A stretch of DNA of 64,000 nucleotides. Origin: Aminobacter ciceronei (GTDB lineage Bacteria > Pseudomonadota > Alphaproteobacteria > Rhizobiales > Rhizobiaceae). The translations under genes and the position numbers were made by a program. Below, one piece after another: positions 7,962 through 27,901 of this stretch. The notes below the pieces were generated by a model. It was not told the DNA's origin, ran no database searches, and was given only the letters and a program-made list of their open reading frames with translations. Location: assembly GCF_014138625.1 (NCBI RefSeq), contig NZ_JACJHY010000001.1, positions 124,001 to 188,000 of the forward strand, in the 5' to 3' direction. Position 1 is the stretch's first letter; the number at the start of each line of letters is the position of its first letter.

Positions 7962-8766
7962 GATCATGCTTGAGATCGACAACGTCTCGAAGATCTACCC
8001 GGGACGGCGCGGCATATTCGGCACCTCAGCCGAGGTCCATGCGCTGAAAAACGTCTCGCTCAGCGTTCGCAAAGGCGAGAGCTTTGGCCTTGTCGGCGAA
8101 AGCGGCTCGGGCAAGACGACGCTGACCCGTTCGATCCTGCATCTGGAAACGCCGACATCGGGCAGCATCCGCGTGCAGGGCCAGGACCTGGGCAAACTCT
8201 CCGACGCCGAACTGCGTCGCCTGCGCTCGCGCGTCCAGATCGTCTTCCAGGATCCTTACGCCTCGCTCAACCCGCGCATGTCGGTCTACGACATCGTCAC
8301 GGAACCACTTGTCATCCACCACGAGACTCTCGGCCTGACCAACAGGCAGCGCAGCGACCGCGCCGCAGAACTGCTTTCGCTCGTCGGCATGGGCCCGCAG
8401 CACCTGCACCGCTATCCGCACGAATTCTCCGGCGGCCAGCGCCAGCGCATCTGCATCGCACGCGCCCTCGCCTCTGGTCCTGAACTGCTGCTGCTCGACG
8501 AGCCGACGTCGGCGCTCGACGTCTCGGTTCAGGCGCAGGTTCTCAACCTGCTGTGCGAGCTGCAGGACCGCCTCGGCCTGACCTATTTCTTCATCAGCCA
8601 CGATCTCGCCGTCGTGCGTTATCTCTGCGACCGGGTGGCGCTGATCAACCGTGGCGAGCTCGTCGAACAGGGCGACTGCGCCGAGATTTTCGACGCCCCG
8701 AAAAGCGAGTACGCCCGCATGCTGATCGGCGCTATGCCGGAGGTGAAGGTGCCGGAGACTGCCTGA
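7954..8766 (+). CDS. ABC transporter ATP-binding protein, DppF-like
   Basis: Second ATPase subunit (270 aa) of the same importer. Walker A is GESGSGKTT, the signature FSGGQRQR, and Walker [13 protein letters not shown]; the H-loop histidine is in FFISHDLAVV. The protein is shorter than many DppF/OppF proteins (about 320 aa) because it lacks most of the C-terminal oligopeptide domain. The start at 7954 overlaps the DppD-like gene by eight bases and has GGAGG at 7940-7944. This is the last gene of the plus-strand operon; the next gene converges on it. Confidence 0.92.
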   Translation: MTEIMLEIDNVSKIYPGRRGIFGTSAEVHALKNVSLSVRKGESFGLVGESGSGKTTLTRSILHLETPTSGSIRVQGQDLGKLSDAELRRLRSRVQIVFQDPYASLNPRMSVYDIVTEPLVIHHETLGLTNRQRSDRAAELLSLVGMGPQHLHRYPHEFSGGQRQRICIARALASGPELLLLDEPTSALDVSVQAQVLNLLCELQDRLGLTYFFISHDLAVVRYLCDRVALINRGELVEQGDCAEIFDAPKSEYARMLIGAMPEVKVPETA

Positions 8767-20803: not shown

Positions 20804-22498
20804 TCAGTGTTGGACGGCACGTACCGGATTGCGGCTGCGCTGGCTGACCCCGACACCGGGGGCGATGCCCACCTGCGCATTGGACGCTGCGAGCAGCGGT
20901 TTTCCACGCACGATGTCGGAAGCCCGTTCGGCGAGCATGATGGTCGGCGCGTTGAGGTTGGCGTTCGGCTCGGACGGGAAGACCGAGCTGTCGATCACCC
21001 TGAGCCCTTCGACGCCACGTACCTTGAGGTTGCTGTCGACGACGGCCATCGCGTCCTCCCCCATGCGGCAGGAGCCGCAAGGGTGGTAGGTGCTCTCCAT
21101 CGTCTCGCGCACCCAGGCGTCGATCTCGTCATTGCTACGAACGTCCTTGCCCGGAGCCATCTCCTCACCACGGAACCTGTCGAAGGCCGGCTGTGCGATG
21201 ATCTCGCGCGTCAACCTCAGACAACGACGGAAACCTTCCCTGTCCTCCTCGCGATCGAGATAGTTGAACAAGATGTCGGGCTGCTCATGCGCTTCGGGTG
21301 ACCGCAATCGGACATAGCCACGGCTCTTGGGCTTGTTGGGGCCGGTCAGCACCATGAAACCGTGCCCCTTGAGCGGCTTCTTGCCGTCATAGCGCATCGC
21401 TGCCGGCAGAAAGTGGAACTGGATGTCGGGCCATTCGAGCGATGCATCGGAACGGATGAAGCCGCCGCTCTCGAAATGGTTGGAGACCGACAACCCCTTC
21501 TTGAACAGGATCCATTCGGCCCCGATCAGCGCCTTGCTCAACAACCCCATCTTGCCGTTGAGCGTAATCGGCTCCTTGCAGGCATACTGTATGTAAACCT
21601 CGGAATGGTCCTGAAGATTTTCACCGACGCCGGGCAGGTCATGCAGCACCGGCACGCCGGCCTTTTGCAGCACCGCCGCAGGCCCGATGCCGGAGCGCTG
21701 AAGGAGATGCGGCGAGCCGATCGGGCCGGAGGAAATGAGCACCTCTCGGCTCGCCTTGGCCACGACGCGTTCGCCGCCGAGTTCATACTCGACACCGATG
21801 GCGCGCTTGCCCTCGAGCAACACGCGACGCGTCATGGCATGGGTGACGACAGTGAGGTTCGGGCGGCTCATCGCCGGCTTGAGATAGGCATTGGCCGTCG
21901 ACCAGCGTACACCGTCCTTGACGGTCATGTGCATGGCGCCGAAGCCCTCCTGCATCTGCCCGTTCGGATCCGCCGTCGTGATGTAACCAGCCTCGTGGCC
22001 GGCATCGACAAAGGCCTTGTAGAGCGGGTTCTGCATCTTGTTGCCGGCATTGGTGGCGAGCGGACCACTGTCGCCGCGATAGGAATCACCGCCCTCTTGC
22101 CAGCTTTCGGCGCGCTGGAAATAGGGCAAGCAATTGGCATAACCCCAGCCGCGCGCGCCGAGCTCGGCCCATTCGTCGAAGTCGCGTGCGTGGCCACGCA
22201 TATAGACCAGTCCGTTGATCGAGGACGAGCCACCGATGACCTTGCCGCGCGGGCAGTGCACCTGCCTGCCGTCGAGGCCGGGCTCCGGCAGGGTCATGTA
22301 TTTCCAGTTGTACTTCGTGCCGTTCATCGGGATCGATAGTGCCGTCGGCATCTGGATGAAGATCGAGTTGTCGCTGCCGCCATATTCCAGCACCAGTACC
22401 TTGCAGGACGGGTCCTCCGTCAGCCGGTTGGCCAGGACGCAGCCGGCCGAACCGGCGCCGATGATGATGTAGTCGAAGGTGGCATCCATGGCGGTCAT
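20804..22498 (-). CDS. GMC family dehydrogenase, choline dehydrogenase-like
   Basis: FAD-dependent alcohol dehydrogenase (564 aa) of the glucose-methanol-choline family, which oxidises an alcohol to an aldehyde. The FAD-binding GAGSAG lies at residues 14-19, the GMC signature is [15 protein letters not shown], and the catalytic histidine motif is [12 protein letters not shown]. The C-terminal FAD/substrate segment [19 protein letters not shown] is present. It resembles BetA, but the neighbours (aldehyde dehydrogenase, ureohydrolase, NCS1 permease) suggest a different amino or guanidino alcohol. An ATG three codons downstream (22489) is an alternative start. It is followed by the 61-aa ORF. 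Confidence 0.9.
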
Positions 22499-22568: not shown

Positions 22569-24038
22569 TCAGCGTCGGGGGTAGTTGCCCCAGCCGGCGC
22601 CGCGGGCGAACAGCCTGGTGAGCACGTAGTGGACCACGCCGGCCGCCACGCAGGACGGCACTGAGGCGGTCAGGTACTTGAAGGCCGGAATGCTCGCGAG
22701 CGTCTGCGGGTTGAAGATCGCAACGTAGACGATGAAGCCCATGGCAAGTGCCGCGAGCCCGATCGGGTTGAATCCTGCCCAGAAACGGTACGGACCGCTT
22801 TCCTGCGGACCATGCAGGCTACGCATGTCCAGCTTCTGGCCGCGCAGGAAGAAGTAGTCGGCGATGCCGATGCCGGCGAGCGCGGAATTGAGCGCCGACG
22901 TCCAGACGAGGAAGATGAAGAAACCGTCATACATCTGCGGGTAGAAGATCACGAGGCCGAGCGGGATGAGGCAGAACAGGAACAGGATCGTGCTCCAGGA
23001 AATGGCGCGCACCGACGCCGTTCCCACCTGCCTGAGACCGACGATGGAGGTGTAGAGAATGTTGGCCATCGAGGTCATGTTGGCGAAGGCAACAAAGAGC
23101 AGAGCGATGATGCCGATGATTGGACCTGCGATCTTGGTCATCCAGATCGTCGGGTCGCTTTCACCCAGGGCAACGGCGGCGAGCAGGCCGACGATTTCGC
23201 CAAGAGCCGCGGCGCCGAAGATACCCAGAATGTTCGGCCAGAAGGCGGTGCGCTCGTTCTTGGTGAGACGTGCCAGGTTGCCGATATAGGGCCACCAGGA
23301 GAAGCCGGCAGCAAGGTTGACTTCAACGGCGATGATGAAGTTGAGCGTGTTGTCTTCGAAGGGCGGAGCAAGCGCCGGCATCTCAAGCAGCTCAGCAAAG
23401 GATCGTTGCTGGAGGATGAGGTAGAGCATTACGATCATCAGGATCACCAGCGCGGGCGAGACGACCATGTTGAAGAACTTGATCGAAGTCGGCCCCTTGG
23501 CGACGATGAACCAGGTGACGAGGATCGCGCCAATCGCGGCGATGACCATCTTGATGCCGGTCGGATTGGCCGCCTCGCCTGCGCTGAGCGCGGCCAGCCC
23601 ATCAATCGAGCGGCCGAACATCATGGCGAGCACCGCGAGCCAGCCCATGGTGAGCACGACGACAGCGAGCACATAGACGATGCGGCTGCCGTTGTAGCCG
23701 AACTGGCTGCGCAGCGCGACGAACTGCTCGATGCCATAGCGACCGGAGAGCGGTGTTGTGGCGAGCGCCGTCAGCACGACACCGACGATGTTGCCGATGA
23801 CGATGGCCGCGATGCCTTCCTTCGGCCCGACGAAGAGGCCGATGGCACCGCCGATCAGGAATGCCCAGGTGGCAATGGCAAGCGCCGAATTGGCGTAAGT
23901 GAACTCCCAGAAGCCCCAGAGGCGTTCGGAAGGAAGCAAAGGCGCATCGCCTCGTTCGGCGGCAGCGCGATTGCGGGCGGCCTCTTCCTGCTCAGTTTCG
24001 ATGGCGGCAAAGCCGCCGCGGCTGACATGGTCGGTCAT
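22569..24038 (-). CDS. NCS1 family permease (purine-cytosine/allantoin type)
   Basis: Inner-membrane symporter (489 aa) with about 12 spans. It has a hydrophilic start and then [20 protein letters not shown], characteristic of NCS1 proteins, which import cytosine, purines, allantoin, hydantoin or thiamine with H+ or Na+. The central [21 protein letters not shown] is the conserved substrate region. The ATG at 24038 lies one base after the stop of a 55-aa membrane ORF. Placement between an aldehyde dehydrogenase and a GMC dehydrogenase suggests it imports the substrate of this operon. The substrate cannot be named from sequence. Confidence 0.88.
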
Positions 24039-24039
24039 T

Positions 24040-24207
24040 TCACGCCCCCCAGATCCAGAATCCGACGACCAGAACAAGCGTCAGGGCGGCCATGCCGGCG
24101 TAGTCGAGCGTGGTCATCACCCCTTCGAAGCGGCCGCCAGCCTCGATGTCCTCATAGATGCGGGCGCGCCGCTCGAGTTCTTTCTGCCAGGCGATATCTG
24201 TTTCCAT
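24040..24207 (-). CDS. Small single-span membrane protein, 55 aa
   Basis: Short ORF starting METDIAWQKELERRARIYED, a charged helical N-terminal part of about 35 residues, followed by one hydrophobic span (GMAALTLVLVVGFWIWGA) that ends the protein. An AGGGGAA ribosome-binding site precedes the ATG. The stop is one base from the NCS1 permease start, so the two should be translated together. The layout recalls small accessory subunits of other secondary transporters (such as the DUF4212 subunit of SSS symporters), but I know no such subunit with certainty for NCS1. Role inferred: stabilising or regulating the permease. Confidence 0.7.
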   Translation of the reverse strand: METDIAWQKELERRARIYEDIEAGGRFEGVMTTLDYAGMAALTLVLVVGFWIWGA

Positions 24208-24334
24208 TGTTGTTCCCCTTTCGCGTCGCGCCTTCGGCGTCTATCCGCGATGCATGCGGCTCCATCAGCCGCCGATCTTGCCAACCGGCCGCCCATGGGC
24301 GACGGCCGGAGAATTGCTCATCAGGCCGAGCACC

Positions 24335-25843
24335 TCATGGCAGCGTGATCCACACGGCCTTGGTCTCCATCAGGTAGTCGAGCTGCTCGGGACCCAGGTC
24401 CTTGCCAAAACCCGAGGCCTTGAACCCGCCGAAGGGCATGGAAGGATCGATCGTGCTGTGGGCATTGACGTAGATCGAACCCGCATGCAGGCGCGGGATC
24501 AGCCCGTGCACCCGCGACAGGTCATTCGAGTAGATCGCAGCCGCCAGGCCGAACGGCGTGTCGTTGGCCAGGGTAACCGCATCATCGAGATCGTCGAATG
24601 CGTCGGTCACCAGAACGGGGCCAAAGATCTCCTCGCGGACGATCGTCATCTCGGGCTTGCAGCGCGCGAAGATCGCCGGTTCGATGAAGTGGCCCGGCCG
24701 GTCGAGGCTCACGCCGCCATGGATCAGTTCGGCGCCTTCGCGGCGGCCGGCCGCGATATAGGACGAGACGACTTTCTTCTGTTGCGCCGAGACCAGCGGG
24801 CCGATGTAGCAGTCGCGGTCGAGGCCAGGCGCGATCTTGAGCGTCTTGGTGACGGCGACCAGTTCGTCGAGGAAGGCGTCATGCACCGAGCGCTGGACAT
24901 AGACGCGCGTGCCGGCGTCGCAAACCTGCCCGGAGTTGAAGAACACGCCGTTCACCACCGCCTTGGCGGCACTCGCGATGTCGGCATCGTCCAGAACGAG
25001 CACCGGCGACTTGCCGCCGAGTTCCAGCGTGACATGCTTGAGATTGCCGACGGCGGTGCGGCCGACCTCCTGGCCGACCGGTGTCGAACCGGTAAACGTC
25101 ACCTTGTCGATGCCGGGATGCGTCGACATAGCCGCGCCGATCACACTGCCGCGGCCCGTCACGATGTTGACGACGCCATCAGGGATGCCTGCCTCCTGCA
25201 CCAGTTCGGCAAAGCGCAATGTGGAGAGCGAGGTCAGTTCGGCGGGTTTGACGATAACGGTACAGCCGACTGCCAGCGCTGCCGCAAGCTTCCAGGCCAT
25301 GGTCTGGAGTGGAAAGTTCCACGGCACGATGGCCGCGACCACACCCAGCGGTTCCTTACGGGTGTAGGCGAGATAGTTGCCGGGAATGGACGGCTCGACG
25401 GTGCGCCCATGCAGCTTGGAAGGCCAGCCGGCAAAGTAGCGAAACGTATCGACCGTGCCCTGGATGTCGATCTCGCGGGCAAAGGTCACCGACTTGCCCA
25501 TGTCGATCGCCTCGATCTCCGCCAACTCGTCGGCATGGAGCTCGATCAGGTCGGCAAGGCGGTGCAGCAGGCGCTCGCGCTCAAGCGGCTTGAGGCGGCG
25601 CCAGGCACCGCCATCGAACTGGCGGCGGGCGGCATGGACGGCCCGGTCGAGATCCTCGGTCGTGCCGGAAGGCGCGCGGCCGACCAGACCGCCGGTCGAA
25701 GGCTCGAAAATATCGAAGGTCGCGCCGTTGCTGGCATCCACCCAGGCGCCGTCGATGAACATCTTTTGCGGCTTCGCCAGAAACCGCCGGGTCGCGTCGC
25801 TGACACCATAGTGGTCGAGATAATTGCGGACGTTGTCGTCCAT
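24335..25843 (-). CDS. Aldehyde dehydrogenase family protein
   Basis: NAD(P)+-dependent aldehyde dehydrogenase (502 aa) that oxidises an aldehyde to a carboxylate. The motifs are IVPWNFPLQTMAWKLAAAL, the coenzyme loop FTGSTPVGQEVG, the general base VTLELGGKSP and the catalytic cysteine FFNSGQVCDAGTR. The C-terminal MPFGGFKASGFGKDLG is typical of BetB/PuuC-type enzymes. The ATG at 25843 has AAGGAGG just upstream, so an in-frame start at 25921 inside the ureohydrolase gene is rejected. With the GMC dehydrogenase it forms an alcohol to aldehyde to acid pair. Confidence 0.93.
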   Translation of the reverse strand: MDDNVRNYLDHYGVSDATRRFLAKPQKMFIDGAWVDASNGATFDIFEPSTGGLVGRAPSGTTEDLDRAVHAARRQFDGGAWRRLKPLERERLLHRLADLIELHADELAEIEAIDMGKSVTFAREIDIQGTVDTFRYFAGWPSKLHGRTVEPSIPGNYLAYTRKEPLGVVAAIVPWNFPLQTMAWKLAAALAVGCTVIVKPAELTSLSTLRFAELVQEAGIPDGVVNIVTGRGSVIGAAMSTHPGIDKVTFTGSTPVGQEVGRTAVGNLKHVTLELGGKSPVLVLDDADIASAAKAVVNGVFFNSGQVCDAGTRVYVQRSVHDAFLDELVAVTKTLKIAPGLDRDCYIGPLVSAQQKKVVSSYIAAGRREGAELIHGGVSLDRPGHFIEPAIFARCKPEMTIVREEIFGPVLVTDAFDDLDDAVTLANDTPFGLAAAIYSNDLSRVHGLIPRLHAGSIYVNAHSTIDPSMPFGGFKASGFGKDLGPEQLDYLMETKAVWITLP

Positions 25844-25856
25844 GTATTCCTCCTTC

Positions 25857-26876
25857 TCAGCCGAAAACCGCGAGCGGCCGGCTCTCCTCAGTTCCTCGTT
25901 CGGCGTTGGTTTGCCTGGCATGCATGACGCGGCCGATGAGGTTCATCAGCACCTGTGCCGCCAGGATGGCGGTACCGCCTGTTTGGTCGTAGTCGGGGGC
26001 CACCTCGACCAGGTCGATGCCGACGATGGTGCCGCGCTTGGCGAGTGCGGCCAGGATCTCCAGCACCTCGTAATAGATGAAGCCGCCATGCGAGGGCGTG
26101 CCGGTGCCCGGCGCGATCGAGGGGTCGAAACCGTCAATGTCGATGGTGACGTAATAGCGCGCGCCGGCGGGAACACGCTCGGCGACGGCGGCACTTCCCA
26201 GGGCGCGGATCTGGCGCACCGACAGGATGTCGGAGCCCATCTTGCGCGCGTCCTCGTATCCCTCTTTGGCGGTGGACGAGACGTTGCGGATGCCGAGCTG
26301 CGACAGGCCGCTGACATAGGGCTTTTCGGCGGCGCGGCGCATCGGGTTGCCGTGGCCGTAGCGCACGCCGTGGCGCTCGTCGACGAAGTCGAGATGAGCG
26401 TCGATCTGGACGATGTGGATCGGGCCGTTCTCGGCGCAATCGTCGGAGAAGGCGTTGATGCAGGGAATATTGACCGAATGGTCGCCGCCCAGCACCACCG
26501 GCAATGCGCCGGCGGCCAGGATCTTGCGCACGCCGAACTCGATGTTGGCGTGGCTCTTCATCGTGTCGGTATGGACGATGTCGGCGTCGCCGATGTCGAC
26601 GATGGAGACCTCGCCGCTGGGCAGGTAAGTGACATCGTCCTCGTGGTCATAGGCGCCGCCATGGCCGAAGGAGAACAGCGTCGAAGCCTCGCGGATGGAA
26701 CGAGGGCCGAAGCGGGTGCCGGCCCGCCACTGCGTGCCGCAGTCGAAGGGCGCGCCGAGGATGGCGACATCGGCGTCGATGGCGTCCCAGTCGGGCTGGT
26801 AGGGATACTTGCCGAAGGTGCAGATGCCGACGAACGGCAGGTTCAGACGTCCGGTTTCATAGGAATTGCTGGCCAT
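25857..26876 (-). CDS. Agmatinase-family ureohydrolase (copy 1)
   Basis: Binuclear-metal ureohydrolase (339 aa) that cleaves a guanidino group to urea plus amine. Metal ligands are visible in GGDHSV, DAHLD and DIDGFDPSIAPG, followed by TPSHGG. The family covers agmatinase, guanidinobutyrase, guanidinopropionase and guanidine hydrolase, and substrate cannot be called here. It is the first gene of the operon with aldehyde dehydrogenase, NCS1 permease and GMC dehydrogenase, and is divergent from a LysR regulator. The body is almost identical to the gene at 41664-42635; this copy has 18 residues after HAR (QTNAERGTEESRPLAVFG) where the other has two. GGAGG precedes the start. Confidence 0.9.
   Translation of the reverse strand: MASNSYETGRLNLPFVGICTFGKYPYQPDWDAIDADVAILGAPFDCGTQWRAGTRFGPRSIREASTLFSFGHGGAYDHEDDVTYLPSGEVSIVDIGDADIVHTDTMKSHANIEFGVRKILAAGALPVVLGGDHSVNIPCINAFSDDCAENGPIHIVQIDAHLDFVDERHGVRYGHGNPMRRAAEKPYVSGLSQLGIRNVSSTAKEGYEDARKMGSDILSVRQIRALGSAAVAERVPAGARYYVTIDIDGFDPSIAPGTGTPSHGGFIYYEVLEILAALAKRGTIVGIDLVEVAPDYDQTGGTAILAAQVLMNLIGRVMHARQTNAERGTEESRPLAVFG
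25914..26876. repeat. 963-bp direct repeat, copy 1 (ureohydrolase gene)
   Basis: This stretch matches 41673-42635 in the same orientation, offset 15,759 bp, with ten substitutions counted by eye and no gaps (about 99% identity). The match begins exactly at the start codon of the gene and ends in its last shared codons; flanking sequence differs. Two of the substitutions change an amino acid. Confidence 0.92.
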
Positions 26877-26968: not shown

Positions 26969-27901
26969 ATGATCAACAAGGTCCGCCATCGCGTCCTCAA
27001 CCTCTCGCTTGGCGATGCGGAACTCAGGCTGCTGCGCGTCTTCGCCTCCGTCGTGCAGCACGGCGGCTTTTCCGCAGCGCAATCGGCGCTAGGCATGACC
27101 CAGGCGACGATCTCCACCCACATGCGCCACCTCGAGGAACGGCTGGGCTTGCGCCTGTGCAGCCGCGGGCGCGGCGGCTTCGAGCTCACCGACGAGGGGC
27201 GGCTCGTTTATGACGCAGCGCTCGAGCTCTTTGGGTCGCTCGAAAAGTTCCAGAGCCGCATCGGCGAGGCGCAGGGGGAGCTGACGGGCAATCTCAGCTT
27301 CGGCACCGTCGATGCCATGATCACCAACCGCGACCTCGACCTGCAGGGAGCATTGGCCGCCTTTCACCGCGCCGCGCCGCGCGTTCATCTGGAAATCGAC
27401 GTCGCCGCACCCCAGGTGCTGCACCAGGGCCTGTTGAACGGCGCCTATCAGATCGTCCTGATGCCGTCGGTCGGTAGTGTCACGCCGCATTTCCGCACCC
27501 AGGCAGCCTTCTCCGAGGTCCAGAAGCTCTACTGTGCCGAGGGCCACGCGCTCTTTGCCGTCCCCGACGCCGACCTCACCGACGACCACCTCGCCGCCCA
27601 ACCCTTCGCCGGCCGCACCTACATGCTCAACGAGACGATCTGCGGGGTGAGCTTCACCTGGGCAGCTGCGACGCCTCATATGGAAGGCACCCTGTTGCTG
27701 CTGCTCTCCGGTGCCTATATCGGCTTCCTGCCCGACCACTATGCCGACGAATGGGTTCGCACGGGCCGCCTCCGGGTGCTGGCGCCCGAGCGCATGGTTT
27801 TCGAGGATATGTTCCACATAGCCTATCCCCGCAACAAACCTTCGCGCGCGGCCGAAACCCTTGCGCAGACCATCACGGAATCGGTGCGCAAGCCGCATTG
27901 A
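26969..27901 (+). CDS. LysR family transcriptional regulator
   Basis: DNA-binding regulator (310 aa). The winged helix-turn-helix is at residues 15-75 (LRLLRVFASVVQHGGFSAAQSALGMTQATIS has the recognition helix), followed by the linker helix and a substrate-binding-protein-like effector domain. It is transcribed away from the ureohydrolase-ALDH-NCS1-GMC operon with a palindrome between the two, so it very likely controls that operon and itself. The inducer would be the guanidino or related compound handled there. A second ATG four bases upstream is out of frame. Confidence 0.9.
   Translation: MINKVRHRVLNLSLGDAELRLLRVFASVVQHGGFSAAQSALGMTQATISTHMRHLEERLGLRLCSRGRGGFELTDEGRLVYDAALELFGSLEKFQSRIGEAQGELTGNLSFGTVDAMITNRDLDLQGALAAFHRAAPRVHLEIDVAAPQVLHQGLLNGAYQIVLMPSVGSVTPHFRTQAAFSEVQKLYCAEGHALFAVPDADLTDDHLAAQPFAGRTYMLNETICGVSFTWAAATPHMEGTLLLLLSGAYIGFLPDHYADEWVRTGRLRVLAPERMVFEDMFHIAYPRNKPSRAAETLAQTITESVRKPH

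Follow-up and report, generated by a model that had tools for sequence, protein, structure and literature searches.

A conserved one-span small protein encoded before carriers of a divergent NCS1 branch is a candidate transporter subunit

Genome comparisons place a small gene, whose product has one predicted membrane span, directly before the carrier gene in almost every member that we examined of one clade of NCS1 transporters. The example analysed here lies in a 64,000-nucleotide stretch of the genome of Aminobacter ciceronei (the window). We consider it probable (about 0.7) that its small open reading frame encodes an accessory subunit with one span, dedicated to carriers of a divergent branch of NCS1. 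The NCS1 family, which includes Mhp1 and CodB, serves as a model for secondary transport, and its carriers are usually treated as single polypeptides; the linkage of the small gene argues against the single-polypeptide view for this branch. If the branch needs a second gene, then carriers that are cloned alone may seem dead or unstable, substrate screens may mislead, and models of gating must add an extra helix.

The small gene and its neighbours

The original prediction placed a short open reading frame at positions 24040-24207, without giving a strand. These coordinates are correct: the frame is on the minus strand (24207-24040 including the TGA), has 55 codons, and encodes METDIAWQKELERRARIYEDIEAGGRFEGVMTTLDYAGMAALTLVLVVGFWIWGA. 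(Read on the plus strand, the same positions translate to an unrelated peptide.) The good ribosome-binding site that had been predicted is present as AAAGGGGA upstream of the ATG (24207-24205), with its run of Gs 7 nt from that ATG. Similarly, AGGGGA or AGGGGAG precedes the small gene in all 20 of 20 rhizobial loci (L022-L040 and L068). At the other end, we find the predicted stop one base before the permease: the TGA (24042-24040) is followed by one A and then by the permease’s ATG at 24038 (minus strand), a junction that is consistent with coupled translation from the small gene into the permease.

The sequence also agrees with the proposed layout of a charged helix followed by a single C-terminal span, in that residues 1-30 are charged and there is one hydrophobic stretch, at the C terminus (Table 1). 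By the positive-inside rule, the N terminus would be inside. Among 77 small proteins from the loci described below, all 77 have more lysines and arginines before the span than after it, and the tail is at most 8 residues; their shared C-terminal span is not independent evidence, because the span was a search criterion. Among the conserved positions are those of the E-L-x-R-R-x-x-x-Y-E region, one glycine, a D-Y pair that precedes the span, and a terminal W-G. None of seven small proteins that we tested matched a Pfam or NCBIfam family over the cut-off, and we found no relative of the small protein by sequence among the PDB sequences.

Table 1. Features of the small gene and the surrounding cluster, in window coordinates.
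Feature	Position	Strand	Basis
GMC oxidoreductase (choline-dehydrogenase-like)	20804..22498	-	domain models
Divergent NCS1 permease, 489 aa	22569..24038	-	PF02133, E 4.2e-24; model of an orthologue matches Mhp1 and CodB
Junction TGA-A-ATG, small-gene stop and permease start	24036..24042	-	sequence; gaps at other loci
Small protein of 55 aa with a single span (start ATG, stop TGA)	24040..24207	-	orthologues, selection, no family match
Predicted membrane span, about residues 36-54, C-terminal	24046..24102	-	sequence
Charged N-terminal part (residues 1-30), predicted to form an amphipathic helix; contains the motif E-[LI]-x-R-R-x-x-x-Y-[ED]	24118..24207	-	pN/pS, consensus, helix 3-25 in model of an orthologue
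Likely ribosome-binding site of the small gene, AAAGGGGA	24214..24221	-	sequence; same motif type in rhizobial loci
Aldehyde dehydrogenase	24335..25846	-	PF00171, E 1.6e-170
Ureohydrolase (agmatinase/guanidinobutyrase type)	25857..26876	-	domain models; PDB matches
LysR-type regulator, divergent	26969..27901	+	PF00126, PF03466; called LysR in orthologous clusters

The genes of the minus-strand cluster run in the order ureohydrolase, aldehyde dehydrogenase, small gene, NCS1 permease, and GMC oxidoreductase, and we infer that the LysR-type gene (26969-27901) controls them. The permease passes the curated cut-off for PF02133 (85.6 bits versus 23.5). Against the NCBIfam model for an NCS1 subfamily (TIGR00800), it scores 98.8 bits, which is below the cut-off of 353.1 and places it in a divergent branch of NCS1. 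It has no match by sequence among the PDB sequences. The best PDB matches of the ureohydrolase are an agmatinase (1wog) and a guanidinobutyrase (3nio). Given the ureohydrolase, the dehydrogenases, and the uptake of metformin by the related carrier MetT (see below), the substrate of the window’s carrier is probably a guanidino compound or a related nitrogen compound. In five other loci (L113, L115, and L143-L145), a Rhizobium-type carrier and its small gene precede an aldehyde dehydrogenase gene, which in L113 and L115 is followed by a phosphotransferase gene; the substrate of these carriers probably differs from that of the ureohydrolase clusters.

Within related bacteria, the small open reading frame evolves as a coding sequence under purifying selection. 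The median dN/dS in frame is 0.243 for 17 rhizobial sequences (136 pairs; one sequence is from a record labelled Roseateles) and 0.252 for 11 Pseudomonas sequences (55 pairs). When these alignments are read in either of the other two frames, the median pN/pS is 1.2-2.0. In the rhizobial set, residues 1-30 are under tighter constraint than the remainder (median pN/pS of 0.17 versus 0.47); in the Pseudomonas set, the two parts are alike (0.30 and 0.36). The record labelled Roseateles (Betaproteobacteria; L015, NZ_CP084754.1, UNVERIFIED_ORG) has a permease that is 91.6% identical to the window’s and lies near the Rhizobiaceae copies, and its organism label is doubtful.

That the open reading frame is a chance or mis-called one is scarcely credible. 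It is short and has no family over the cut-off in Pfam or NCBIfam, as a chance frame might, but its conservation, its linkage to the carrier, the carrier tree, and the selection on it speak strongly against this. As a base rate, we considered 409 other long open reading frames in the same loci, some of which are doubtful: just five have a small open reading frame with a C-terminal span within 15 nt of their possible start, and 11 have one within 80 nt, by the same criteria. We also rejected a phage origin of the small gene, as there was no match to the carrier in the phage collection. Elsewhere in the window’s genome there is a 27% match to the small protein (L002, E = 1.1), which we took as chance.

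Linkage to the carrier and spread across the clade

To survey orthologues of the permease, we scanned one genome per species with the permease as the only seed, so that the presence of the small gene at the resulting 55 loci was not selected for. A profile of the small protein (built from 12 seeds, 10 of which are from these same 55 loci) found the small gene directly upstream of the permease in 54 of the 55 (weakest E = 9.2e-14); at one of the 54 (L076) the permease is only a fragment with a broken frame. The remaining locus is from Dongia (L073), whose permease is 34% identical, and it has a 53-aa open reading frame with the same layout that overlaps the permease’s start by 4 nt. When we used the small protein as a tblastn query against a plasmid collection, it matched 13 records, which are the same 13 that have the permeases closest to the window’s. 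The absence of the small gene before orthologous permeases had been proposed as what would refute the original prediction, and these results are the reverse.

In a sample of 199 genomes from the family, we found no clear copy of the small gene separate from the carrier: there was a clear match to the small protein only in the window’s genome and in L004, which is apparently the same locus as L039; another ten weaker matches (E from 0.003 to 0.07) were taken as chance. Judging by these comparisons, the small protein qualifies as a dedicated partner, as it is present with the carrier and was not seen without it, with the exceptions of two plasmids on which the gene is interrupted and one genome in which it is displaced (see below).

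We then pooled the carriers into a set of 110 loci, which omits L001-L021, L076, L077, L091, L104, L116, L117, L133, and L137 because they are early, fragmentary, below the cut-off, or duplicates. Of these carriers, 77 have a small open reading frame at no more than 80 nt, and in 75 of the 77 the gap is from -4 to +12 nt. (L134-L136 probably repeat L033, L034, and L024, so the 77 are likely to contain no fewer than three duplicates.) Three rows of this set need comment. For L090, the script picked a neighbouring open reading frame. A looser scan had found upstream frames for L090 (119 aa; on inspection, the last part of another membrane protein) and for L102 (44 aa), and both were excluded by the later criteria. 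L138 is scored as having no small gene owing to its cut carrier frame, and its small gene is intact.

Further carriers, many of them more distant, were examined in four ways. First, 28 plasmid records have carriers that are 26.9-40.6% identical to the window’s; we opened 16 of these, the remainder being 12 Rhizobium phaseoli records (H43-H54). Of the 16 loci, which include Burkholderia, Caballeronia, Rhizobium, and Thioclava, 14 have an intact upstream small open reading frame with a C-terminal span and two have an interrupted one. The sole record from Actinomycetota (Arthrobacter) has a 69-aa frame with a gap of -4 nt, and the sole record from Bacillota (Bacillus badius) has a 66-aa frame that is 67 nt from the carrier. 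Second, a survey with PF02133 of 289 genomes from the class gave 30 places, from which we dropped L091 (a fragment) and L104 (below the cut-off); of the 28 carriers that we kept, five have the small gene (including the window’s) and 23 do not. Third, with the window’s permease as the query, we obtained 12 matches among 398 genomes from the phylum, of which four have the small gene (the window, L117, L118, and L119; L117 is the same place as L099) and eight do not, and five matches among 397 genomes from the order, of which the window and three others have an adjacent small gene and L142 does not. Fourth, in 10 genomes of the window’s genus, all nine matched carriers have the small gene (including the window’s; three of the nine probably repeat loci from the 55-locus scan). 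Some loci are less typical: the gap is 67 nt for L111 and 62 nt for L118, the frame of L119 is only 40 aa, and the position of the carrier’s start is ambiguous for L141. Finally, 31 NCS1-type loci outside of the clade (which do not include the loci of Mhp1 and CodB themselves) had no small gene by the criteria that we used.

In a tree of 65 representative carriers (which omits L090, L138, and near-copies, and to which L139-L142 were not added because they joined the survey later), a branch supported at 100/99 separates the 40 carriers that have a small gene, together with one whose small gene is interrupted, from the 24 carriers without the gene. The presence of the small gene requires two changes on this tree, versus a mean of 20 if the labels are shuffled. 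The exact places of L119, L111, L108, and several of the rows without the gene are uncertain because of long branches. The original prediction of a dedicated partner for the window’s NCS1 permease is thus supported but was too narrow, as the putative partner marks a whole clade.

Profile comparisons link several of the small families to each other. As E-values for single comparisons, these are 1.3e-7 between clades A and B, 1.4e-7 between B and Arthrobacter, and 7e-7 between the MetT type and Thioclava. Only marginal links connect B to the Rhizobium 27% type (1.1e-4 over 25 columns) and connect A to Arthrobacter (2.8e-4), to the MetT type (5.2e-4 over 20 columns), and to Bacillus (8.1e-4). The small protein of the gamma locus L118 had no significant profile link to the other small families. 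Because the similarity is marginal or absent for several families, independent origins for some of them are possible.

The original prediction also suggested that the gene is short enough to be missed by annotation. This is true in part. It is recorded as a “hypothetical protein” in some records; for Caballeronia, it is absent from the PLSDB table, which is incomplete by design. In that case (plasmid L112, 2236-2448) the small gene is present in the DNA.

Metformin carriers, interrupted genes, and a displaced copy

The window’s carrier groups with the metformin importer MetT, apart from other NCS1 carriers (branches of 100/98 and 100/99), and the clade that has the small gene includes MetT. 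This carrier of Aminobacter sp. NyZ550, described in 2026, represents a separate lineage within NCS1, is essential for growth on metformin, and has an apparent Km of 15.9 uM (PMC13390362). In strain MD1, two independent insertions in the NCS1 gene abolish growth on metformin (PMC9699525). On three plasmids of metformin degraders, we took the carrier to be MetT because of its N terminus, its length, and the neighbouring genes for HypA and HypB; the published primer for the start of MetT encodes MASQPN (PMC13390362). One of these copies (L107) is 40.6% identical to the window’s carrier, and the two group together (100/98). The metformin clusters also contain a hydrolase of the ureohydrolase superfamily, and in the window’s genus a small gene of this type accompanies related carriers, but the window’s carrier has other gene neighbours. 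In five of the 10 genomes from the genus, there are MetT-type carriers that are 91-92% identical to the plasmid MetT, each with a small gene that overlaps the carrier’s start. For three genus-mates, the small proteins are identical to those of named Aminobacter loci, in keeping with the genus assignment. A description of the plasmid region that metformin degraders share mentions “a hypothetical protein”, which may be this gene (PMC9800807).

Two of the plasmids, pMET-2 and that of strain KHPS1, have a small gene that a premature stop cuts short immediately ahead of the span, and the carrier’s frame is open, so this carrier may work without the small protein. (The interrupted gene is at 2268-2459 of L107, and L137 has the same gene.) Furthermore, a clone of metT by itself rescued both growth and uptake of the metT deletion strain (PMC13390362). 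Both observations speak against an obligate role for the small protein, with the proviso that the small gene could have remained in the genome of the NyZ550 deletion strain. Two homologues of MetT, with 91.7% and 70.15% identity, failed to restore growth, for which the authors suggest substitutions in the binding site or expression as reasons (PMC13390362). The absence of a small partner is a further candidate reason, and it suggests a control for this complementation experiment. The available portion of that paper’s text names no small partner (PMC13390362). A far-reaching version of our reading would be that obligate two-protein transporters make up the entire branch, which we found in Pseudomonadota, Actinomycetota, and Bacillota and to which the metformin importer belongs: a working carrier would require the one-span subunit, its omission would explain the homologues that failed, and the plasmid carriers with interrupted small genes would have recently escaped from dependence. 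We regard this version as possible but doubtful. The plasmid of strain KHPS2 (L138, 2959-4371) has the opposite arrangement, with an intact small gene and a carrier frame that stops early, near the N terminus; the carrier’s annotated start is further inside the gene.

The carrier without an adjacent small gene in the order (L142, from genome G1171) is 62% identical to L098, and an MFS gene lies directly upstream and overlaps its frame. When we searched G1171 with the small protein of L098, a homologue (E = 1.4e-11) turned up on the opposite strand, at a distance of about 6 kb from the carrier, where it precedes an aldehyde dehydrogenase gene. The window’s permease has one match in G1171 at E of 1e-20 or better. 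The displaced gene (L155, G1171:C5) is at about 8287-8430, and a luciferase-like monooxygenase gene lies between it and the carrier.

The displaced copy bears on whether the small open reading frame is just a translational leader whose peptide has no role. A leader would predict the junctions that we see, which lie between -4 and +3 nt for 70 of the 77 scored loci, but it would not predict the dN/dS of about 0.24 in frame or the conserved motif, and a simple coupling leader would not explain why the gene was kept without adjacency in G1171. Overall, we consider a leader to be very improbable. The displaced copy also lends itself to testing whether the small protein can act in trans, and together with the interrupted genes it provides ready material for experiments.

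A model of the pair and known small partners

In twelve orthologous loci, the small gene and the carrier are in the same frame and 3 nt apart. For the eleven of these with a TGA stop, we read the stop as a residue and folded the pair as a single chain (45 rows). The model for the L052 orthologue pair has a pTM of 0.69 and a mean pLDDT of 72.6, and its small part has helices at 3-25 and 35-62 with a low pLDDT of about 60. In a Foldseek search, the modelled carrier matched Mhp1 (E = 3.4e-11) and CodB (E = 1.3e-9), with which it shares a fold but only about 21-22% identity (2x79, 4d1a, 7qoa, and 2jln). The model supports the fold of the carrier and the two-helix layout of the small part, and not an interface.

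If the small protein is an accessory subunit, then it might be made by coupled translation with the carrier and insert with its N terminus inside and its C-terminal helix in the membrane. The span would pack against helices of the carrier, and the charged N-terminal helix (E-L-x-R-R-x-x-x-Y-E), at the cytoplasmic face, would make the carrier more stable or adjust its inward gate. The pair would import a small compound, of guanidino type or related to it, for breakdown by the ureohydrolase, the aldehyde dehydrogenase, and the GMC oxidoreductase.

Other carriers with the LeuT fold have small or single-span partners, such as YjcH/ActP and the DUF4212-type small partners of SSS symporters, and the 4F2hc-LAT1 heteromers. 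The SSS partners have two spans, however, and the window’s small protein matches no Pfam family over the cut-off.

The small protein could instead be a regulator like AcrZ, the partner of AcrB, which would bind part of the time and alter the activity of the carrier or its range of substrates. We think that this is unlikely: the tight linkage (a gap of -4 to +12 nt in 75 of 77 loci) and the retention across the clade suggest a fixed partnership, and AcrZ is not known to be encoded beside its pump. On the other hand, the interrupted copies on two metformin plasmids would fit a dispensable modulator, and in size and single span the small protein resembles AcrZ, which has 49 aa (PMC10710835). Quite unlikely, in our view, is a factor for assembly or protection that stays outside of the working transporter and aids insertion or shields the carrier from proteolysis, as with MgtU or MgtS. 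These two are precedents (PMC10710835), and a gene just before the carrier suits co-translational help, but the copy in G1171 that is about 6 kb away argues against a strict need for co-translation.

Small accessory membrane proteins of transporters are thus already known, and AcrZ, MgtS, and MgtU, at about 28-55 aa, each act on a transporter (PMC10710835). They belong with other transporter families, and the window’s protein differs by the conserved, charged helix that precedes its span and by the tight linkage of its gene. The text of this review of small membrane regulators does not contain “NCS1” or “nucleobase” (PMC10710835). Among the matches listed in the open-licence PMC literature (subscription journals being outside its scope), there was no small partner of an NCS1 carrier. 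A paper on guanidine in comammox bacteria has no NCS1 in its text (PMC11410670), and the “small subunit” in a Haloferax paper refers to malic enzyme (PMC7746861). In P. aeruginosa, PA1419/PA1420 are a possible orthologous pair; the text matches in two papers proved to be prefixes of PA14 locus tags.

At the 55 loci and beyond, we favour the reading of the small protein as an accessory subunit.
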